Source: Oxalobacteraceae bacterium | GTDB taxonomy: Bacteria > Pseudomonadota > Gammaproteobacteria > Burkholderiales > Burkholderiaceae_D | Length of the DNA: 36,532 nt | Assembly: GCA_947464955.1 (NCBI GenBank) | Contig: CANHZI010000025.1 | Coordinates: forward strand, 1-36,532 | Direction of reading: 5' to 3' | Shown: one piece after another, positions 3,435-20,467 of the stretch | Position numbering within the stretch: the stretch's first letter is position 1 | Layout of the letters: each line of letters starts with the position of its first letter | The notes under the pieces: generated by a model | Databases searched by the model: none | What the model saw: the letters and a program-made list of their open reading frames with translations, nothing else | Told to the model about the DNA's origin: nothing | Program-made: the position numbers and the translations under genes

Positions 3435-4676
3435 TTAAGCATACGTACGCAAACGCAAAGAGAACTCCTGCAAAGTCTTGATGCCGGACGCTTCAGCACG
3501 TGCACACCAATCTTGCAGCTGGGCCACCAACTGTTCGCGCGTGGCGCTAGAACGTTCCCAAATCGCATTTAGTTCAACACGCATATCATGCATGGTTTTC
3601 AAGGCGCTGCTGTGGTCGAACAATTCACGTAAAGTTTGCAATTGCGTCGCCTCCAACTTAGCTGGCTCACGTTGCAAGGCTTTCTTCGCAGATTTCAAGA
3701 AGCTCTTTTCCAATTGCGCCTTTTCGCGCAACTGTTGAAACTCTTCGCTCCACTCCTTTTTGAGTGACTTCGCATATTTAGCCATAACGTCATAGCGATT
3801 CGCGATAACCGCTTGCAGCGTTTCAACGTCAACCATCATTTTCTCTTTTGAGAATTTAGGACGAGGTGCCACTTTCTTCACTTTTGCAAGGCCAATTGTT
3901 TCCAAAATACGGATATACCCCCAGCCAATATCGAATTCATACCATTTGGAGGACAACTTCGCCGAGGTACCAAAAGTATGATGATTATTGTGCAGCTCTT
4001 CACCGCCAATCAAAATACCCCAAGGCACGATGTTCGTTGCCGCATCATTACATTCGTAGTTACGGTAGCCCCAGTAGTGACCAATACCGTTAATGATGCC
4101 GGCCGCTGTCACTGGAATCCACAACATCTGTACCGCCCAAACCGTCACACCAATCACACCAAACAACATGAAATCAATGATCAACATTAAGGCAACGCCC
4201 TGCCAACTGAAACGGGTATACAAATTACGTTCAATCCAGTCATCCGGAGTACCGTGACCATATTTTTGAATCGTCTCTAAGTTCTTTGATTCGGCACGAT
4301 ATAACTCAGCCCCTTCGAACAAAACTTTTTTAATACCACGTGTCACAGGACTATGCGGATCTTCCTCAGTTTCACATTTGGCATGGTGTTTACGGTGCAC
4401 GGCAGCCCATTCTTTGGTCACCTGCCCTGTCGTCAGCCATAACCATAAGCGGAAGAAATGGCTTGGGATCGCATGCAATTCGAGTGCACGATGCGCCTGG
4501 CAACGGTGCAAGAAAATTGTGACGCTGGCGATCGTGATGTGCGTTACGACCATCGTAAAGATAAATACTTGCCATGCTGTTGCGCGGGTAAAACCGTTAC
4601 TCAGGAAGTCCACAGCGCTATCGATAAAATTACTCAAAATATATAACCACTCCAAAAGATTTTGAAACTCAGTCAC
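3435..4676 (-). CDS. membrane fatty acid (acyl-CoA delta-9 type) desaturase, DesA-like
   Basis: A di-iron membrane desaturase that puts a double bond into acyl chains. The histidine boxes are complete: HRCQAHRALELH, HRKHHAKCETEEDPHSP and EELHNNHHTFGTSAKLS. Hydrophobic segments before box 1 and between boxes 2 and 3 fit a four-helix membrane domain. After about residue 275 comes a hydrophilic, mostly helical tail of roughly 140 residues with a final WCARAEASGIKTLQEF segment. A similar tail is known in Pseudomonas/Burkholderia DesA-like proteins. The longest frame begins with TTG at 4694. I prefer GTG at 4676 (413 residues) because GAAGG lies 5 bases upstream of it and no ribosome site precedes the TTG. 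The substrate (phospholipid or acyl-CoA) cannot be told from sequence. Confidence 0.9.
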   Translation of the reverse strand: MTEFQNLLEWLYILSNFIDSAVDFLSNGFTRATAWQVFIFTMVVTHITIASVTIFLHRCQAHRALELHAIPSHFFRLWLWLTTGQVTKEWAAVHRKHHAKCETEEDPHSPVTRGIKKVLFEGAELYRAESKNLETIQKYGHGTPDDWIERNLYTRFSWQGVALMLIIDFMLFGVIGVTVWAVQMLWIPVTAAGIINGIGHYWGYRNYECNDAATNIVPWGILIGGEELHNNHHTFGTSAKLSSKWYEFDIGWGYIRILETIGLAKVKKVAPRPKFSKEKMMVDVETLQAVIANRYDVMAKYAKSLKKEWSEEFQQLREKAQLEKSFLKSAKKALQREPAKLEATQLQTLRELFDHSSALKTMHDMRVELNAIWERSSATREQLVAQLQDWCARAEASGIKTLQEFSLRLRTYA

Positions 4677-4755
4677 CGAAACCTTCGGCAACAAATACCA
4701 CTAAATTGTACGCTCGTTTAGCCTTTCGTCGCAGGCGCTAGGCACAAAAACGACG

Positions 4756-6063
4756 CTATCTCTTTGGTTCTGCTTGATGAATTGTTATGTCTCGATGCGG
4801 ATATGGCAATTCAACATTCAATTCTTTCAACAATTTCCAAATAACCCGGTTCACCTCGGAAGTAATATTGGTGCGTCCATTTTCCGGATCATCAATCCAA
4901 AAACCAACACGCACATCAAAACCATCCGCACCAAACTTCAGCAAGTAGGATGAAGGTGGGATTGCTTGCGATACTCGCGGTACCACACTCACCACCTCAA
5001 TCAATCGAGGCAAGAGAGTATCCAGATCTGTCTTGTAGTCGACCGTAAAATCTGTCGTAATTATGACCGCTCTATCAGTCAATGAAAGGTTTTGTACGGG
5101 ATTCGAAACTAGCATCTCATTTGGGATAATCGACTCCACACCATCAAGGCCTTTAAGAACCGTGTAGCGGGTATTGATTTGTGTGACGCGACCACTAAAT
5201 TTATCCACCGTAATCATGTCATCGATCGATAAACTACGATCAAACAAAATAATGAAACCAGAAACATAGCTGCTGGTAATGCGTTGCAAACCCAAACCTA
5301 AACCAACGCCGAGAGCGCCGCCAAAGACCGACAACACAGTCAGATCGATACCAACCAGTGACAAGCTAATCAGGATCGCCATCAGAATAAAAATCGCCCG
5401 ACCCAGACGCGACAGCACAACTTTCAATGAGGAATGCATGCTAGGAATCAGCATCAAACGGGCTTCCAGCATCGCACTCACCCACAGTGCCAAGACCACC
5501 GTCAATGCCACAGATGCAATTCCTTGCAATATCGCTAGCAAACTTACTTTACTCTTACCCAAGGGTAAAATGACTTCAGAGAGGCTGAGCAATAATTCAT
5601 CCCAAAGCCCAGTCATGTACAACACCACGCCCAGCCAAACCAAAGACGCGAATACTTTCTCAAACACGAGTAAAGTATTTCCAACGGCTCCCTCGCGTAC
5701 GAACGCACGCCGAAAAACATAAAAACTAAAGCGAATTAAAGCAAAGCTCGCCAATATCGGGAAAGATAGCTTGAGCAAACTTGTGTGTTGAAATTTCGCG
5801 AGGAAAAACTTTGCAAGAAACAAGAAAGCAAGCGCAAGCAAGGGCCACAATACGCGCGAAAAACTCTCCACCCCGATTTTGACGACATCAGAAGTATCGC
5901 CGACTTTGGCAAACATCTTATGCAATTGTTTTGACAGAAACCAAGCCAGCACAAAGCACAAAACGATGCTAAAGACCTGCCACATAAAATTGGCATCGCC
6001 AAAATCAGCAGAAATATCAGAAACCAAATGGGATATGGTATGCGTGCCCATGATCAATTTCAT
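4756..6063 (-). CDS. MscS-family small-conductance mechanosensitive channel, multi-helix type
   Basis: A 435-residue inner-membrane protein. Several hydrophobic helices (roughly residues 25-45, 70-90, 98-115, 130-155, 175-200, 218-243) precede the pore helix. Then comes the MscS signature: a Gly/Ala-rich pore helix VFGGALGVGLGLGLQRITSS, FIILFDRSLSIDDMITVD entering the beta domain, and IIPNEMLVSNPVQNLS. It therefore has more membrane helices than E. coli MscS (three). The family opens under membrane tension and releases solutes during osmotic downshock. Two starts are possible, ATG 6063 and ATG 6051, and neither changes the call. It lies about 80 bases upstream of the desaturase gene on the same strand. 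Confidence 0.9.
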   Translation of the reverse strand: MKLIMGTHTISHLVSDISADFGDANFMWQVFSIVLCFVLAWFLSKQLHKMFAKVGDTSDVVKIGVESFSRVLWPLLALAFLFLAKFFLAKFQHTSLLKLSFPILASFALIRFSFYVFRRAFVREGAVGNTLLVFEKVFASLVWLGVVLYMTGLWDELLLSLSEVILPLGKSKVSLLAILQGIASVALTVVLALWVSAMLEARLMLIPSMHSSLKVVLSRLGRAIFILMAILISLSLVGIDLTVLSVFGGALGVGLGLGLQRITSSYVSGFIILFDRSLSIDDMITVDKFSGRVTQINTRYTVLKGLDGVESIIPNEMLVSNPVQNLSLTDRAVIITTDFTVDYKTDLDTLLPRLIEVVSVVPRVSQAIPPSSYLLKFGADGFDVRVGFWIDDPENGRTNITSEVNRVIWKLLKELNVELPYPHRDITIHQAEPKR

Positions 6064-17495: not shown

Positions 17496-18101
17496 TCACT
17501 TACGTGTGCTATGCACAATGTCGACAAATTTGACCGCTTGCTGCTCCATTTCAACCACGAAGCTATCAACCAATGCACGGAAATGGCGATAAAAGATCAT
17601 CGCTGGCATCGCAATCAAAAGACCAAAACCGGTGTTATATAAAGCGACGGAAATACCATGCGCAAGCTGCGCTGGATTGGCACCTGCGGCATTTTGCGAG
17701 CCAAAAATTTCGATCATACCGACCACAGTTCCAAACAAGCCCATCAAAGGAGCCAAGGAAGCAATTGTTCCTAAAGTGGTCAAGAATTTTTCCAACTCAT
17801 GCGCAACCGCACTTCCAGCTTCTTCAATCGACTCTTTCATGACTTCACGAGGGGCATGGACATTACGCAGACCTGCCGCTAAGACGCGGCCTAAAGGTGA
17901 ATTAATCGCCAATTGATCAATCACTTCCTGCTTAATTTTTCCGCTTTGATACACACGAATAACCTCTTCAAGTAAGGTCTTCGGCAGAATACGTTGACGA
18001 CGAAGGGATAGGGAGCGCTCAATAATTAACGCCAGCGCCACGATAGAAGCTATCAAAAGTAAATAAATAGGCCAGCCAGCAGCCTGAATAATCGCGAACA
18101 A
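17496..18101 (-). CDS. exbB: ExbB/TolQ/MotA-family proton channel protein
   Basis: A 201-residue inner-membrane protein with three hydrophobic helices (about 8-28, 110-135 and 150-172). The MotA/TolQ/ExbB signature runs from LATIASLAPLMGLFGTVVGM-like residues through GISVALYNTGFGLLIAMPAM. It is the stator partner of ExbD. The start codon is TTG at 18101, supported by AAGGAG at 18113-18108 six bases upstream; no in-frame ATG is nearby. The long non-coding region with DnaA-box-like modules lies directly upstream. Confidence 0.93.
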   Translation of the reverse strand: MFAIIQAAGWPIYLLLIASIVALALIIERSLSLRRQRILPKTLLEEVIRVYQSGKIKQEVIDQLAINSPLGRVLAAGLRNVHAPREVMKESIEEAGSAVAHELEKFLTTLGTIASLAPLMGLFGTVVGMIEIFGSQNAAGANPAQLAHGISVALYNTGFGLLIAMPAMIFYRHFRALVDSFVVEMEQQAVKFVDIVHSTRK

Positions 18102-18107
18102 ATGAAA

Positions 18108-18113
18108 CTCCTT
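18108..18113 (-). promoter_or_regulatory. Shine-Dalgarno fixing the TTG start of exbB
   Basis: AAGGAG on the minus strand, 6 bases before the TTG at 18101. It is a near-perfect anti-16S match and the reason a non-ATG start is accepted. Confidence 0.75.
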
Positions 18114-18344
18114 ACATTGACTTAAAGATGGACCGCAAGCCTCAGCATTTCAACAAAGAATCTGCCTGAGCACAGGTCCCATGCTTCCGAACCTGAAGTT
18201 CGAAGATTGAATTGCTAAGTTAAGCTCGCAATGTATCGTGTTGTTGCGCAGCGGGCAAGTCTATCGAGCGGAATATTTTTGTTCGAGCTAAAACACGACA
18301 ATCAGCCATTATATTTTCAACAATAAAGACATGCGCCGACAAAG

Positions 18345-18410
18345 TTCTGCACAGTTTCTGTGTGCAATATTGTGGATATCTTTGGGATGAAATGATAAGT
18401 GATTGATTTA
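18345..18410 (+). repeat. DnaA-box-like module 1
   Basis: TTCTGCACA (18345-18353), 5 bases, TGTGTGCAA (18359-18367), 3 bases, TGTGGATAT (18371-18379), then AAGTGATTGATTTA at 18397-18410. It has the same layout and spacing as modules 2 and 3, with more degenerate boxes. Confidence 0.6.
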
Positions 18411-18515
18411 ACGACACATTAGTACTGCGCCACAAATTTAAGCATTCCTTTGAATTGACTAAAAAACGAACAAAAGGCATTTCCATCAGGAAATTAACAG
18501 AAAATATTCCGAAGA

Positions 18516-18524
18516 CGTGGATAA
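18516..18524 (-). repeat. solitary DnaA-box-like site
   Basis: CGTGGATAA on the plus strand, one mismatch from the reverse complement of TTATCCACA. It stands 10 bases before module 2. Confidence 0.45.
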
Positions 18525-18533
18525 GTAGCAAAG

Positions 18534-18599
18534 TTTTGCACACAAACTGTGGATGACTTTGTGAACAACACTTTCACATATCCTCAAGTGATTGATTTA
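18534..18599 (+). repeat. DnaA-box-like module 2
   Basis: TTTTGCACA (18534-18542; fits the relaxed consensus TTWTNCACA), 5 bases, TGTGGATGA (18548-18556; one mismatch from the inverse box), 3 bases, TGTGAACAA (18560-18568), then AAGTGATTGATTTA at 18586-18599, identical to the element in module 1 and at the same 38-base offset from the first TGTG. Confidence 0.7.
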
Positions 18600-18725
18600 T
18601 TTGAATAAAAGTATGCTGCTCGAATTTTGATCAAACACCGCATTTATTCATAAAACAAGAGAAAACATAAAAAATACATAATTTATTTAGGAAATTGAGT
18701 GGAAATTCGACGAATCCTTGACTAG

Positions 18726-18790
18726 TTTTGCACAAGAATTGTGGATAAGATTGTGAACATGCTGGGCAATAAAGTTTAAGTCGATGATTT
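18726..18790 (+). repeat. DnaA-box-like module 3
   Basis: TTTTGCACA (18726-18734), 5 bases, a perfect inverse DnaA box TGTGGATAA (18740-18748), 3 bases, TGTGAACAT (18752-18760), then AAGTCGATGATTT from 18778, again 38 bases from the first TGTG. It aligns to module 2 without gaps over about 65 bases. Confidence 0.72.
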
Positions 18791-18863
18791 CATTGATTTT
18801 TGTTTCACTGCCTTAAAAAAAGGCAAATCTTGTTTTAATGCCACATGGAAATATTTCAAGTTT

Positions 18864-18920
18864 TCTTTACGCACTCCTGTGGATAACTTTGTGAATAAAC
18901 TTCATGCCGAAGTAATTATA
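18864..18920 (+). repeat. DnaA-box-like module 4
   Basis: The left box is degenerate (TTTACGCAC near 18866). Then come a perfect inverse DnaA box TGTGGATAA (18878-18886), 3 bases, and TGTGAATAA (18890-18898; fits the relaxed consensus), followed by AAGTAATTATA from 18910. It borders the AT-rich stretch. Confidence 0.68.
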
Positions 18921-19019
18921 AAAAGTCTACAGCAAACAAAGAAACTTTTTTTACATGAAATAAAATTAATAAAAACATTAAAATTCATTAAAAATCAATA
19001 ACTTAAGAATTTCATCTAA
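18904..19019. other. AT-rich stretch beside the DnaA-box-like modules
   Basis: By my count 69 of the 80 bases at 18941-19020 are A or T. Near-repeats ATTAATAAAAAC (18965-18976), ATTAAAATTC (18977-18986) and ATTAAAAATC (18987-18996) follow in tandem. Such a stretch next to DnaA boxes resembles a DNA unwinding element, but it may simply be the AT-rich upstream region of the xseA promoter. Confidence 0.45.
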
Positions 19020-19062
19020 AGCAGTTTTTCAGATACAGGGCCACATTGCGCCTCCCCTACCC

Positions 19063-19068
19063 TATAAT
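19063..19068 (+). promoter_or_regulatory. -10 element of the xseA promoter
   Basis: A perfect TATAAT 35 bases before the xseA ATG. No recognisable -35 lies at 16-18 bases, so the site may be activator-dependent or helped by the AT-rich upstream stretch. The predicted start, near 19075, falls on TGTGGACAT (19076-19084), a poor DnaA-box-like match. Confidence 0.5.
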
Positions 19069-19102
19069 CGCTGCTTGTGGACATATATCCCTTACAGACA
19101 CC

Positions 19103-20467
19103 ATGGCATCCTATTCTTTGTTCGAAAATCCCACTAAAAATGAGCCCGTTATCACGGTATCGGCTCTAAACCAAGCTGTAGCGCGACTTCTCGAACAAAA
19201 TTTCCCGCTGACTTGGATTTCCGGTGAAATTTCCAATTTCACCCGCGCCGCATCGGGTCATTGGTACTTCACACTCAAGGATGCAGACGCGCAGGTTCGT
19301 GCTGTGATGTTTCGTGGTCGGGCACAATATGCCTCTTTCACACCTCGGGAAGGCGATAAAGTCGAAGTACGAGCAATGGTCGGACTCTACACGCCCCGTG
19401 GTGACTACCAAATCAATGTGGAGACCATACGCCGCGCGGGTCTTGGTTCTTTATATGAGACTTTTTTACGACTGAAGGCGCAACTGGAGAGCGAGGGCCT
19501 GTTTGACCCAACTAGGAAAAAAGATATCCCTTTGTTTGCCAGACGCATTGCCATTGTCACCAGCCCTAACGCCGCTGCACTCAGAGATGTCTTAAGCGCC
19601 TTCAAACGCAGAGCGCCACATATTGAACTCTGCATCTATCCCTGCCCGGTGCAGGGCGAAGGTGCTGCGGCCAAAATCGCACAAGCCATAGCGACCGCCT
19701 CGGCGGATCCCAAGAATGAGTTAATCATCGTCTGCCGCGGTGGCGGAAGTATTGAAGATCTATGGGCATTTAATGAAGAAATCGTGGCAAGAACCATTGT
19801 GAACTGTGAAATTCCAGTGATCAGTGGCGTTGGTCACGAGACAGATTTCACGATTGCCGATTTCGTCGCTGACTTGCGAGCGCCAACGCCAACAGCCGCA
19901 GCCGAATTAGCCGCCACCGCACAACAAGACTGGCTTGCGAGCCTTGACCATCAGCGCCAACGACTGCATCGTCTAATGCACCGACAACTACAAAACCAGT
20001 CACAACAGCTAGATTGGACGGCGCGGCGCTTGGTCAGCCCTATCGCCAGTATTTCGAGCAAACGCCAAAACTTGCAGATCGCCGCCCAACATTTACGGCA
20101 AGCCTTACAAGTTCCAGCGCAACGCGGCCGCACTCGACTACAACAACTTCAACAAAATCTGCTCCAAAAAAGGCCACAGGTTGCTGTTCATCAAAGCCGA
20201 CTAAGAAGCGAATCCAACGCTATCACGATGGCGATGACCAACAATTTACGTCAACACCAATTACGATTGACACACTTGAGCGAACAGCTTGAGCTACTTA
20301 ATCCACAACGGACACTAGATCGTGGGTATGTGATTTTAAGCCAAGCCGATGGCAGCCTTGTGCGTAGCGCCCAACAGCTTGAAGCCAATCAAAACTTCAT
20401 CTTACGCACCGCAACCGACCTCAGCGATGTCCAAGTCAAGTTAATCGGAAAACCCAGAAAATCGTAA
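19103..20467 (+). CDS. xseA: exodeoxyribonuclease VII large subunit
   Basis: Catalytic subunit of the single-strand-specific exonuclease VII, acting in repair and recombination with XseB (not in this window). From ATG 19103 it has 454 residues. The N-terminal OB-fold ([39 protein letters not shown]) is followed by the catalytic domain with [32 protein letters not shown] and [20 protein letters not shown]. After that come about 120 Gln/Arg-rich helical residues expected to form the long coiled coil, and a C-terminal LDRGYVIL segment. The longest frame begins at TTG 19046, upstream of the predicted transcription start, so the ATG is preferred. No clear Shine-Dalgarno. Confidence 0.96.

Follow-up and report, generated by a model that had tools for sequence, protein, structure and literature searches.

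A gene-free region that carries regularly arranged DnaA boxes raises the question of whether these boxes mark an origin, hold DnaA, control a neighbouring gene or return DnaA to its active form. The region considered here lies in the window, that is, the whole stretch of DNA that was analysed, 36,532 nucleotides of a contig from an Oxalobacteraceae bacterium (G000:C25) whose ExbB shares 98% identity with the Undibacterium nitidum protein. A preliminary description had placed four modules of DnaA-box-like sites in about 1 kb without genes and had read them as a site that controls or titrates DnaA, such as datA or DARS, or as an origin. The gene-free stretch is confirmed and extends from 18102 to 19102, between exbB on the minus strand (17496 to 18101; MotA/TolQ/ExbB proton channel, Pfam PF01618, E 2.5e-32) and xseA on the plus strand (19103 to 20467, with its ATG at 19103; exonuclease VII large subunit, Pfam PF02601, E 8e-106). 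Its GC content is 35%, compared with 46% for the window. A scan of the window for structured RNA gave no hit that reached the gathering score of an Rfam family, and a search for plasmid relatives gave no match.

All four module starts given previously, 18345, 18534, 18726 and 18878, with spacings of 189, 192 and 138 bases, were recovered on the plus strand. The gap contains three full modules, in which a forward box I is followed after 5 bp by an inverted box II and after a further 3 bp by an inverted box III, and one half module. Against the corresponding triple-box pattern, module 2 (18534 to 18568) has no mismatch, module 3 (18726 to 18760), whose box II at 18740 has the full consensus, has one, and module 1 (18345 to 18379) has two, its boxes I, II and III being located at 18345 to 18353, 18359 to 18367 and 18371 to 18379. 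Module 4 (18878 to 18898) consists of boxes II and III only, and the position of its box I (18864) is degenerate, as it is in the U. nitidum locus (L002). The individual boxes also agree with the earlier account: exact inverse TTATCCACA boxes are present at 18740 and 18878, relaxed-consensus boxes at 18534 and 18726 (TTTTGCACA) and at 18890 (TGTGAATAA), and 9 of the 11 box positions in the four modules are at most one mismatch from TTWTNCACA; the two weaker boxes are box II in module 1 and box III in module 3. At up to three mismatches, the triple-box pattern occurs three times in the 36.5-kb window, while 100 dinucleotide shuffles of the window gave a mean of 0.05 matches and a maximum of 1. 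In the whole genome, there are six such matches, three in the exbB-xseA gap, one in the hemE-priA gap and two with three mismatches elsewhere; the reversed pattern, used as a control, matched once.

A 14-base element, AAGTGATTGATTTA, had been noted 38 bases after the first TGTG of a module and had been left without a name. Module 1 (18359/18397) and module 2 (18548/18586) have it at this distance, and a variant is present at 18778; on its other strand, the element is the consensus for integration host factor (IHF). The predicted IHF site of module 1 (TAAGTGATTGATT, 18396 to 18408) is an exact TAAnnnnTTGATW; that of module 2 (18585 to 18597) is an exact WATCAANNNNTTR on the minus strand, with one mismatch to the form TAAnnnnTTGATW; and module 3 has an IHF-like site (18777 to 18789) with one mismatch to the consensus. 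All three, listed on the plus strand, start at +51 from the start of the core. A terminal predicted IHF site, an exact consensus match in the opposite orientation (18993 to 19005, minus strand), lies 129 bp past the position where module 4 is projected to start.

We searched the DARS1 and DARS2 regions of E. coli K-12 for the same forward-5-inverted-3-inverted arrangement of boxes. The DARS1 core (L141:1608) reads TTATCCACT-5-TGTGGATAA-3-TGTGTATTA and the DARS2 core (L142:2136) reads TTATTCACC-5-TGTGGATAG-3-TGTGAAGAA, an arrangement identical to that in modules 2 and 3 of the window; module 1 has it too, within its two mismatches to the derived pattern. The pattern fits DARS1 with no mismatch and DARS2 with one, whereas in the E. 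coli datA stretch the best such triplet has four mismatches, and the E. coli oriC stretch has none at up to four. In its passage on DARS structure, a review describes equal box spacing, with box I opposite to boxes II and III, as what the two E. coli DARS share structurally (PMC5742627), and all full modules of the window have this three-box core. Because box order and both spacers are those of E. coli DARS1 and DARS2 and the arrangement recurs at the same place in relatives, the earlier reading of a DnaA-controlling locus is supported and can be narrowed from datA or DARS to DARS. We put at roughly 0.7 the probability that the exbB-xseA gap is a DARS-type locus, a tandem array of cores that reactivates DnaA. 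Since its DnaA sites are laid out like the reactivation sites of E. coli, the array probably helps to set the timing of DNA copying. Several features speak against a DARS: besides the frequent weakness of box III and the lack of box I in module 4, these are the nearer IHF site, the cores without an IHF-like site, the gaps without a core, the absence of an exact Fis consensus, the His at DnaA residue 227, the different neighbouring genes and the pattern matches at other loci, all described below.

The preliminary description had proposed comparing the exbB-xseA gap across related genomes, and had stated that absence of the modules from close relatives would refute its reading. At up to two mismatches, at least one core is present in 43 of 43 genomes of the genus, in which the reversed control gave about 7 matches in 7 genomes. 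Among the 30 genus loci listed, 29 adjoin xseA, 27 of them together with exbB and 2 with no exbB seen, and the remaining one is the hemE-priA locus. The best 80 of 447 loci, among them 23 titled as metagenome-assembled genomes (MAGs), supplied a broader set of 70 exbB-xseA gaps from Oxalobacteraceae and related MAGs; the other 10 loci were left out for want of an xseA match upstream of exbB. At up to three mismatches, 65 of these 70 gaps hold at least one core and 5 hold none, for a total of 317 cores, and the reversed pattern at up to two mismatches was found in none of the 70. The spacer pair (5,3) accounts for 181 triplets in the 70 gaps, the next pair for 29, and the 255 other pairs together for 106. 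Core numbers per gap, counted at the three-mismatch threshold, were 3 to 6 in Undibacterium (17 loci), 6 to 7 in Janthinobacterium (11 loci), 5 to 7 in Duganella (13 loci), 7 to 8 in Rugamonas (5 loci), 5 to 6 in Pseudoduganella (3 loci), 6 to 7 in Massilia (2 loci) and 0 to 1 in Noviherbaspirillum (7 loci, three with none). The single loci from Herbaspirillum, Herminiimonas and Lacisediminimonas have one core each, a Paucimonas MAG has none, two Burkholderiaceae/Burkholderiales MAGs have 2 and 6, and six other MAGs have 0, 1, 1, 1, 1 and 4; the gaps are up to 1.76 kb long. It is of note that 19 of the 54 gaps with at least three cores, the window included, have a weak box II (TGTGTG or TGTGCG) in the first module, and that no later module has one. 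As the weak box is confined to first modules, module identity seems to be conserved by position.

The position of the IHF site relative to the core is also constrained. Among the 120 exact minus-strand IHF matches in the 70 gaps, 118 start at +51 or +52 from a core start; of the other two, one is at +158 and one lies in a gap without an upstream core. Expressed per core, an exact site is present at +51/52 in 118 of 317 and a site with up to one mismatch in 212, 105 cores being without an IHF-like site at this position, and no IHF-like site was found among the 317 cores at any of six other offsets tested. Plus-strand matches number 50 in the same gaps; in 35 of the 70 gaps, one such match lies 118 to 120 bases after the start of the last core, and the remainder were found at 48 to 49 (6), 129 (2), 125 and 267 or had no upstream core (5).

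Sequence comparison between relatives indicates which parts of the array are held constant. In pairwise alignments of Undibacterium group A, boxes differ at 10.5% of positions, linkers at 22% and other gap sequence at 42%, and boxes differ less than the rest also in Undibacterium group B (7.7% versus 43%) and in Janthinobacterium (2.4% versus 28%). The bases specified by the IHF consensus differ at 1.6% of positions in group A, compared with 55% for the free NNNN within the same sites, which serve as an internal control; over the three alignments, the ranges are 1.6 to 8% and 33 to 55%. Both the box and the IHF rates are somewhat favoured, because boxes and IHF sites were classified by consensus in one of the two sequences compared. 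The linkers within cores change at 22% in Undibacterium group A, 38% in group B and 5% in Janthinobacterium, and no insertion or deletion inside a box was seen in any of the three alignments. Successive cores are 117 to 220 bp apart, with three longer spacings of 278, 304 and 345 bp, and corresponding spacings in neighbouring Undibacterium genomes differ in some cases by about 11 bp (189/178; 181/192/203) and in others by less (167/169). When the three spacings above 230 bp are left out, core spacing is phased at 10.5 bp with R values of 0.64 for one gap per sequence cluster (n = 67), 0.56 when each cluster contributes its distinct values (n = 103) and 0.35 when each spacing value is counted once (n = 50), with the significance of these values being a guide only, as the clusters are still related.

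Farther away, the pattern is widespread but not tied to one locus. With complete per-genome counts at up to two mismatches, as for the genus, 262 of 300 order genomes (control, about 18 matches in 17 genomes) and 241 of 274 class genomes (control, about 30 matches in 26 genomes) have at least one match. Among the 30 order loci listed, 13 adjoin xseA, 2 adjoin priA and 15 adjoin neither; a match to the pattern is therefore not always the exbB-xseA locus, nor necessarily functional. In a separate sample based on XseA, comprising the best 30 of 115 order genomes with an xseA match and including the genome under study, 17 have at least one core upstream of xseA at up to two mismatches, and 10 of these 17 have a reversed IHF-like site (up to one mismatch) 118 to 120 bases farther on. 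In light of this, a single core with a reversed IHF site is likely to be the older state, and the array a probable family-level expansion of it. Elsewhere in the class, a distantly related genome has the triple-box pattern three times at intervals of about 325 bp (G569:C206, 51221 to 51903), possibly an array that arose independently.

The density of boxes and the AT-rich gap would suit an origin or a secondary origin, as the preliminary description had allowed, but the position of the array in relatives runs against this. In the single-contig relative G014, GC skew read every 105 kb turns near 2.65 to 2.73 Mb and near 0.6 Mb, and a finer profile places the former turn at about 2.686 to 2.690 Mb. 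Over the 400 kb read, DnaA boxes are densest at this turn, with 10 boxes within 500 bp, and only one other place, at 2.965 Mb, reaches seven or more. The G014 array is located at 4.133 to 4.135 Mb, which is 1.45 Mb, or 0.69 of a replichore, away from the skew turn. At coarser sampling, G016 (sign change at 1.98 to 2.2 Mb, array at 3.768 Mb) and G067 (sign change at 0.02 to 0.26 Mb, array at 1.428 Mb) agree with G014, so that in all three relatives the array, intergenic in the window, lies between oriC and the terminus, at about 0.45 to 0.73 of the replichore. The origin reading is not borne out by these data, and we regard it as highly improbable. At the G014 skew turn itself, positions 5886 to 8492 of L267 (G014:C1, 2680001 to 2700000) contain 29 DnaA boxes at up to one mismatch in about 2.6 kb, approximately 262 kb from dnaA and 18 kb from mnmG; this cluster is probably the oriC of this Undibacterium relative.

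Among the remaining alternatives, titration is the main rival: the boxes would soak up DnaA or, together with IHF, promote ATP hydrolysis as at datA, and initiation would be delayed in either case. The 11 box positions of the window, and up to eight cores in relatives, would indeed hold many DnaA molecules, and datA, for which boxes 2, 3 and 7 plus one IHF site are the minimum and which promotes ATP hydrolysis, likewise pairs DnaA boxes with an IHF site, the E. coli locus having one such consensus. A review passage touching on subtilis and Streptomyces (PMC5742627) is also in its favour. Titration alone, however, leaves the fixed 5- and 3-bp spacers, the indel-free boxes and the fixed IHF offset unexplained; the poor fit of E. 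coli datA to the triple-box pattern contrasts with that of DARS1 and DARS2; and the array is far from oriC in three relatives, unlike E. coli datA, which is described in the accounts consulted as always close to oriC. For these reasons we consider titration or datA-like inactivation an unlikely explanation of the locus as a whole, but whether the array serves reactivation, titration or both is the main doubt, and titration may act as well. A promoter region responsive to DnaA and IHF would be a different matter. As exbB and xseA diverge, the gap should contain the promoters of both, and the E. coli loci are themselves located in promoter regions, DARS1 in that of uvrB and DARS2 in that of mutH, according to the part of PMC5835720 that describes them. 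Nevertheless, up to eight modules in gaps of up to 1.76 kb far exceed what promoter control needs, and a core with an IHF-like site recurs in the hemE-priA gap; control of exbB and/or xseA is, in our judgement, very improbable as the function of the array. An ordinary interspersed repeat spread by copying would account for modules in tandem, but at up to two mismatches the genome contains only the three cores of the gap and the one between hemE and priA, not the genome-wide scatter named earlier as grounds for rejection, and the boxes are better conserved than the linkers and the free IHF positions. The chance of such a repeat is negligible.

If the array is a DARS, it is a variant rather than an orthologue of DARS1 or DARS2, given its copy number, an IHF site four turns nearer to the core, the lack of an exact Fis consensus and its different neighbours. 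The array-bearing genera have 3 to 8 cores, whereas each E. coli DARS is described as having a single one in the sources at hand, and the array adjoins exbB and xseA, with the further core at hemE-priA, instead of uvrB or mutH. E. coli DARS2 needs Fis (FBS2-3), and the exact consensus GnnYAnnnnnTRnnC, which gives one position in E. coli DARS2, has no match in 18102 to 19102, where weaker sites are possible. Like DARS2, the array has an IHF consensus downstream of the core in the same orientation, but at +51/52 instead of +93, which is 41 to 42 bp, or about four helical turns, nearer. The E. coli DARS2 region has IHF-like sites at +93, oriented as the +51 sites are, and at +109 in reverse, 3 bp apart, and IBS1 and IBS2 are described accordingly in the relevant section of PMC4245941, where moving IBS1-2 by 5 or 10 bp towards the core is reported to leave DARS2 only partially active. 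E. coli DARS1 differs in having no IHF-like site at fewer than two mismatches in the stretch scanned. With regard to chromosomal position, the array resembles DARS2 in lying between oriC and the terminus (about 0.41 for E. coli DARS2) and DARS1 in its replichore fraction (about 0.66, compared with 0.69 in G014). The DARS of ColE1, set beside the array from its description alone, also has three DnaA boxes, two of them essential in the correct orientation as stated in PMC5835720, but is plasmid-borne and 70 bp long. A passage of the review cited above reports that beta- or gammaproteobacteria close to E. coli keep the spacing among the core, the IHF sites and the Fis sites of DARS2 (PMC5742627), and for this reason we do not claim that a DARS in betaproteobacteria is new; the excerpts found on DnaA or DARS in betaproteobacteria, Burkholderia, Burkholderiales and Undibacterium name no DARS of the array kind.

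Of the partner proteins expected for such a locus, IHF-alpha and Hda, the latter being responsible for ADP-DnaA formation in E. coli, were both found above curated cut-offs in the three genomes searched. DnaA is identical to E. coli DnaA at 247 of 464 aligned residues and has the same residues at R399, D433, H434, T435, R285 and L290, whereas R227 is replaced by His and R401 by Ala; Arg227 is named as important at DARS2 in the E. coli literature. For E. coli DARS, ADP release is attributed in a passage of PMC8682772 to head-to-head contact between the DnaA molecules on boxes I and II. By analogy, ADP-DnaA would assemble on the three boxes of a full module with the same contact between boxes I and II, DNA bending by IHF, bound downstream of box III at a distance of 16 to 17 bp, would assist ADP release from the complex, and the freed apo-DnaA would take up ATP. 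Several cores in helical phase and far from oriC would then provide more reactivation capacity late in the replication cycle. Binding of DnaA and IHF, ADP release and the cell-cycle role are predictions from sequence. More tentatively, it is conceivable that in this branch of the Oxalobacteraceae a phased array of DARS cores, most of them with an IHF site of their own four turns nearer than in E. coli, works as one cooperative, Fis-independent machine and that core number, from three to eight, tunes the initiation mass of a lineage, although we hold this for somewhat less probable than its contrary. Arrays within one family amount to natural experiments in copy number and spacing, and the near-invariance of the boxes, the 5/3 spacers and the IHF offset, set against the parts that change freely, suggests a design rule for DnaA reactivation. 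From the helical phasing of the cores, neighbouring DnaA-IHF complexes are predicted to be in contact. Candidate DARS loci are also gained for bacteria in which the literature searched names none.

Outside the array, the genome has one further core at up to two mismatches, located between hemE and priA (L209, 3675 to 4131; G000:C72) and followed by a reversed predicted IHF site at +119, which makes this locus a candidate second DARS. Seven hemE-priA loci from seven genomes contain eight cores, six of which have a reversed IHF-like site at +118 to +120, the loci without one being L210 and L211. Distances from dnaA to the hemE-priA core are about 183 kb in G002, 295 kb in G014 and 349 kb in G016, and in G014 this core is about 33 kb from the skew turn. 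Matches of 30 bases on other contigs of five genomes had been considered as oriC; this was dropped, and the one in G002 (L213), whose neighbours were checked, is the hemE-priA core. In G098, whose hemE-priA core is L208, two further DARS-type cores about 2.5 kb apart were seen at 4049 and 6566 of L216 (G098:C1, 4198500 to 4209000), each with a reversed IHF-like site at +119, in a region that has no match to HemE, PriA, ExbB or XseA. Elsewhere in the window, one open frame at 3435 to 4694 has matches to a fatty acid desaturase as well as to part of an ISL3 transposase and is perhaps a fusion caused by an insertion element.
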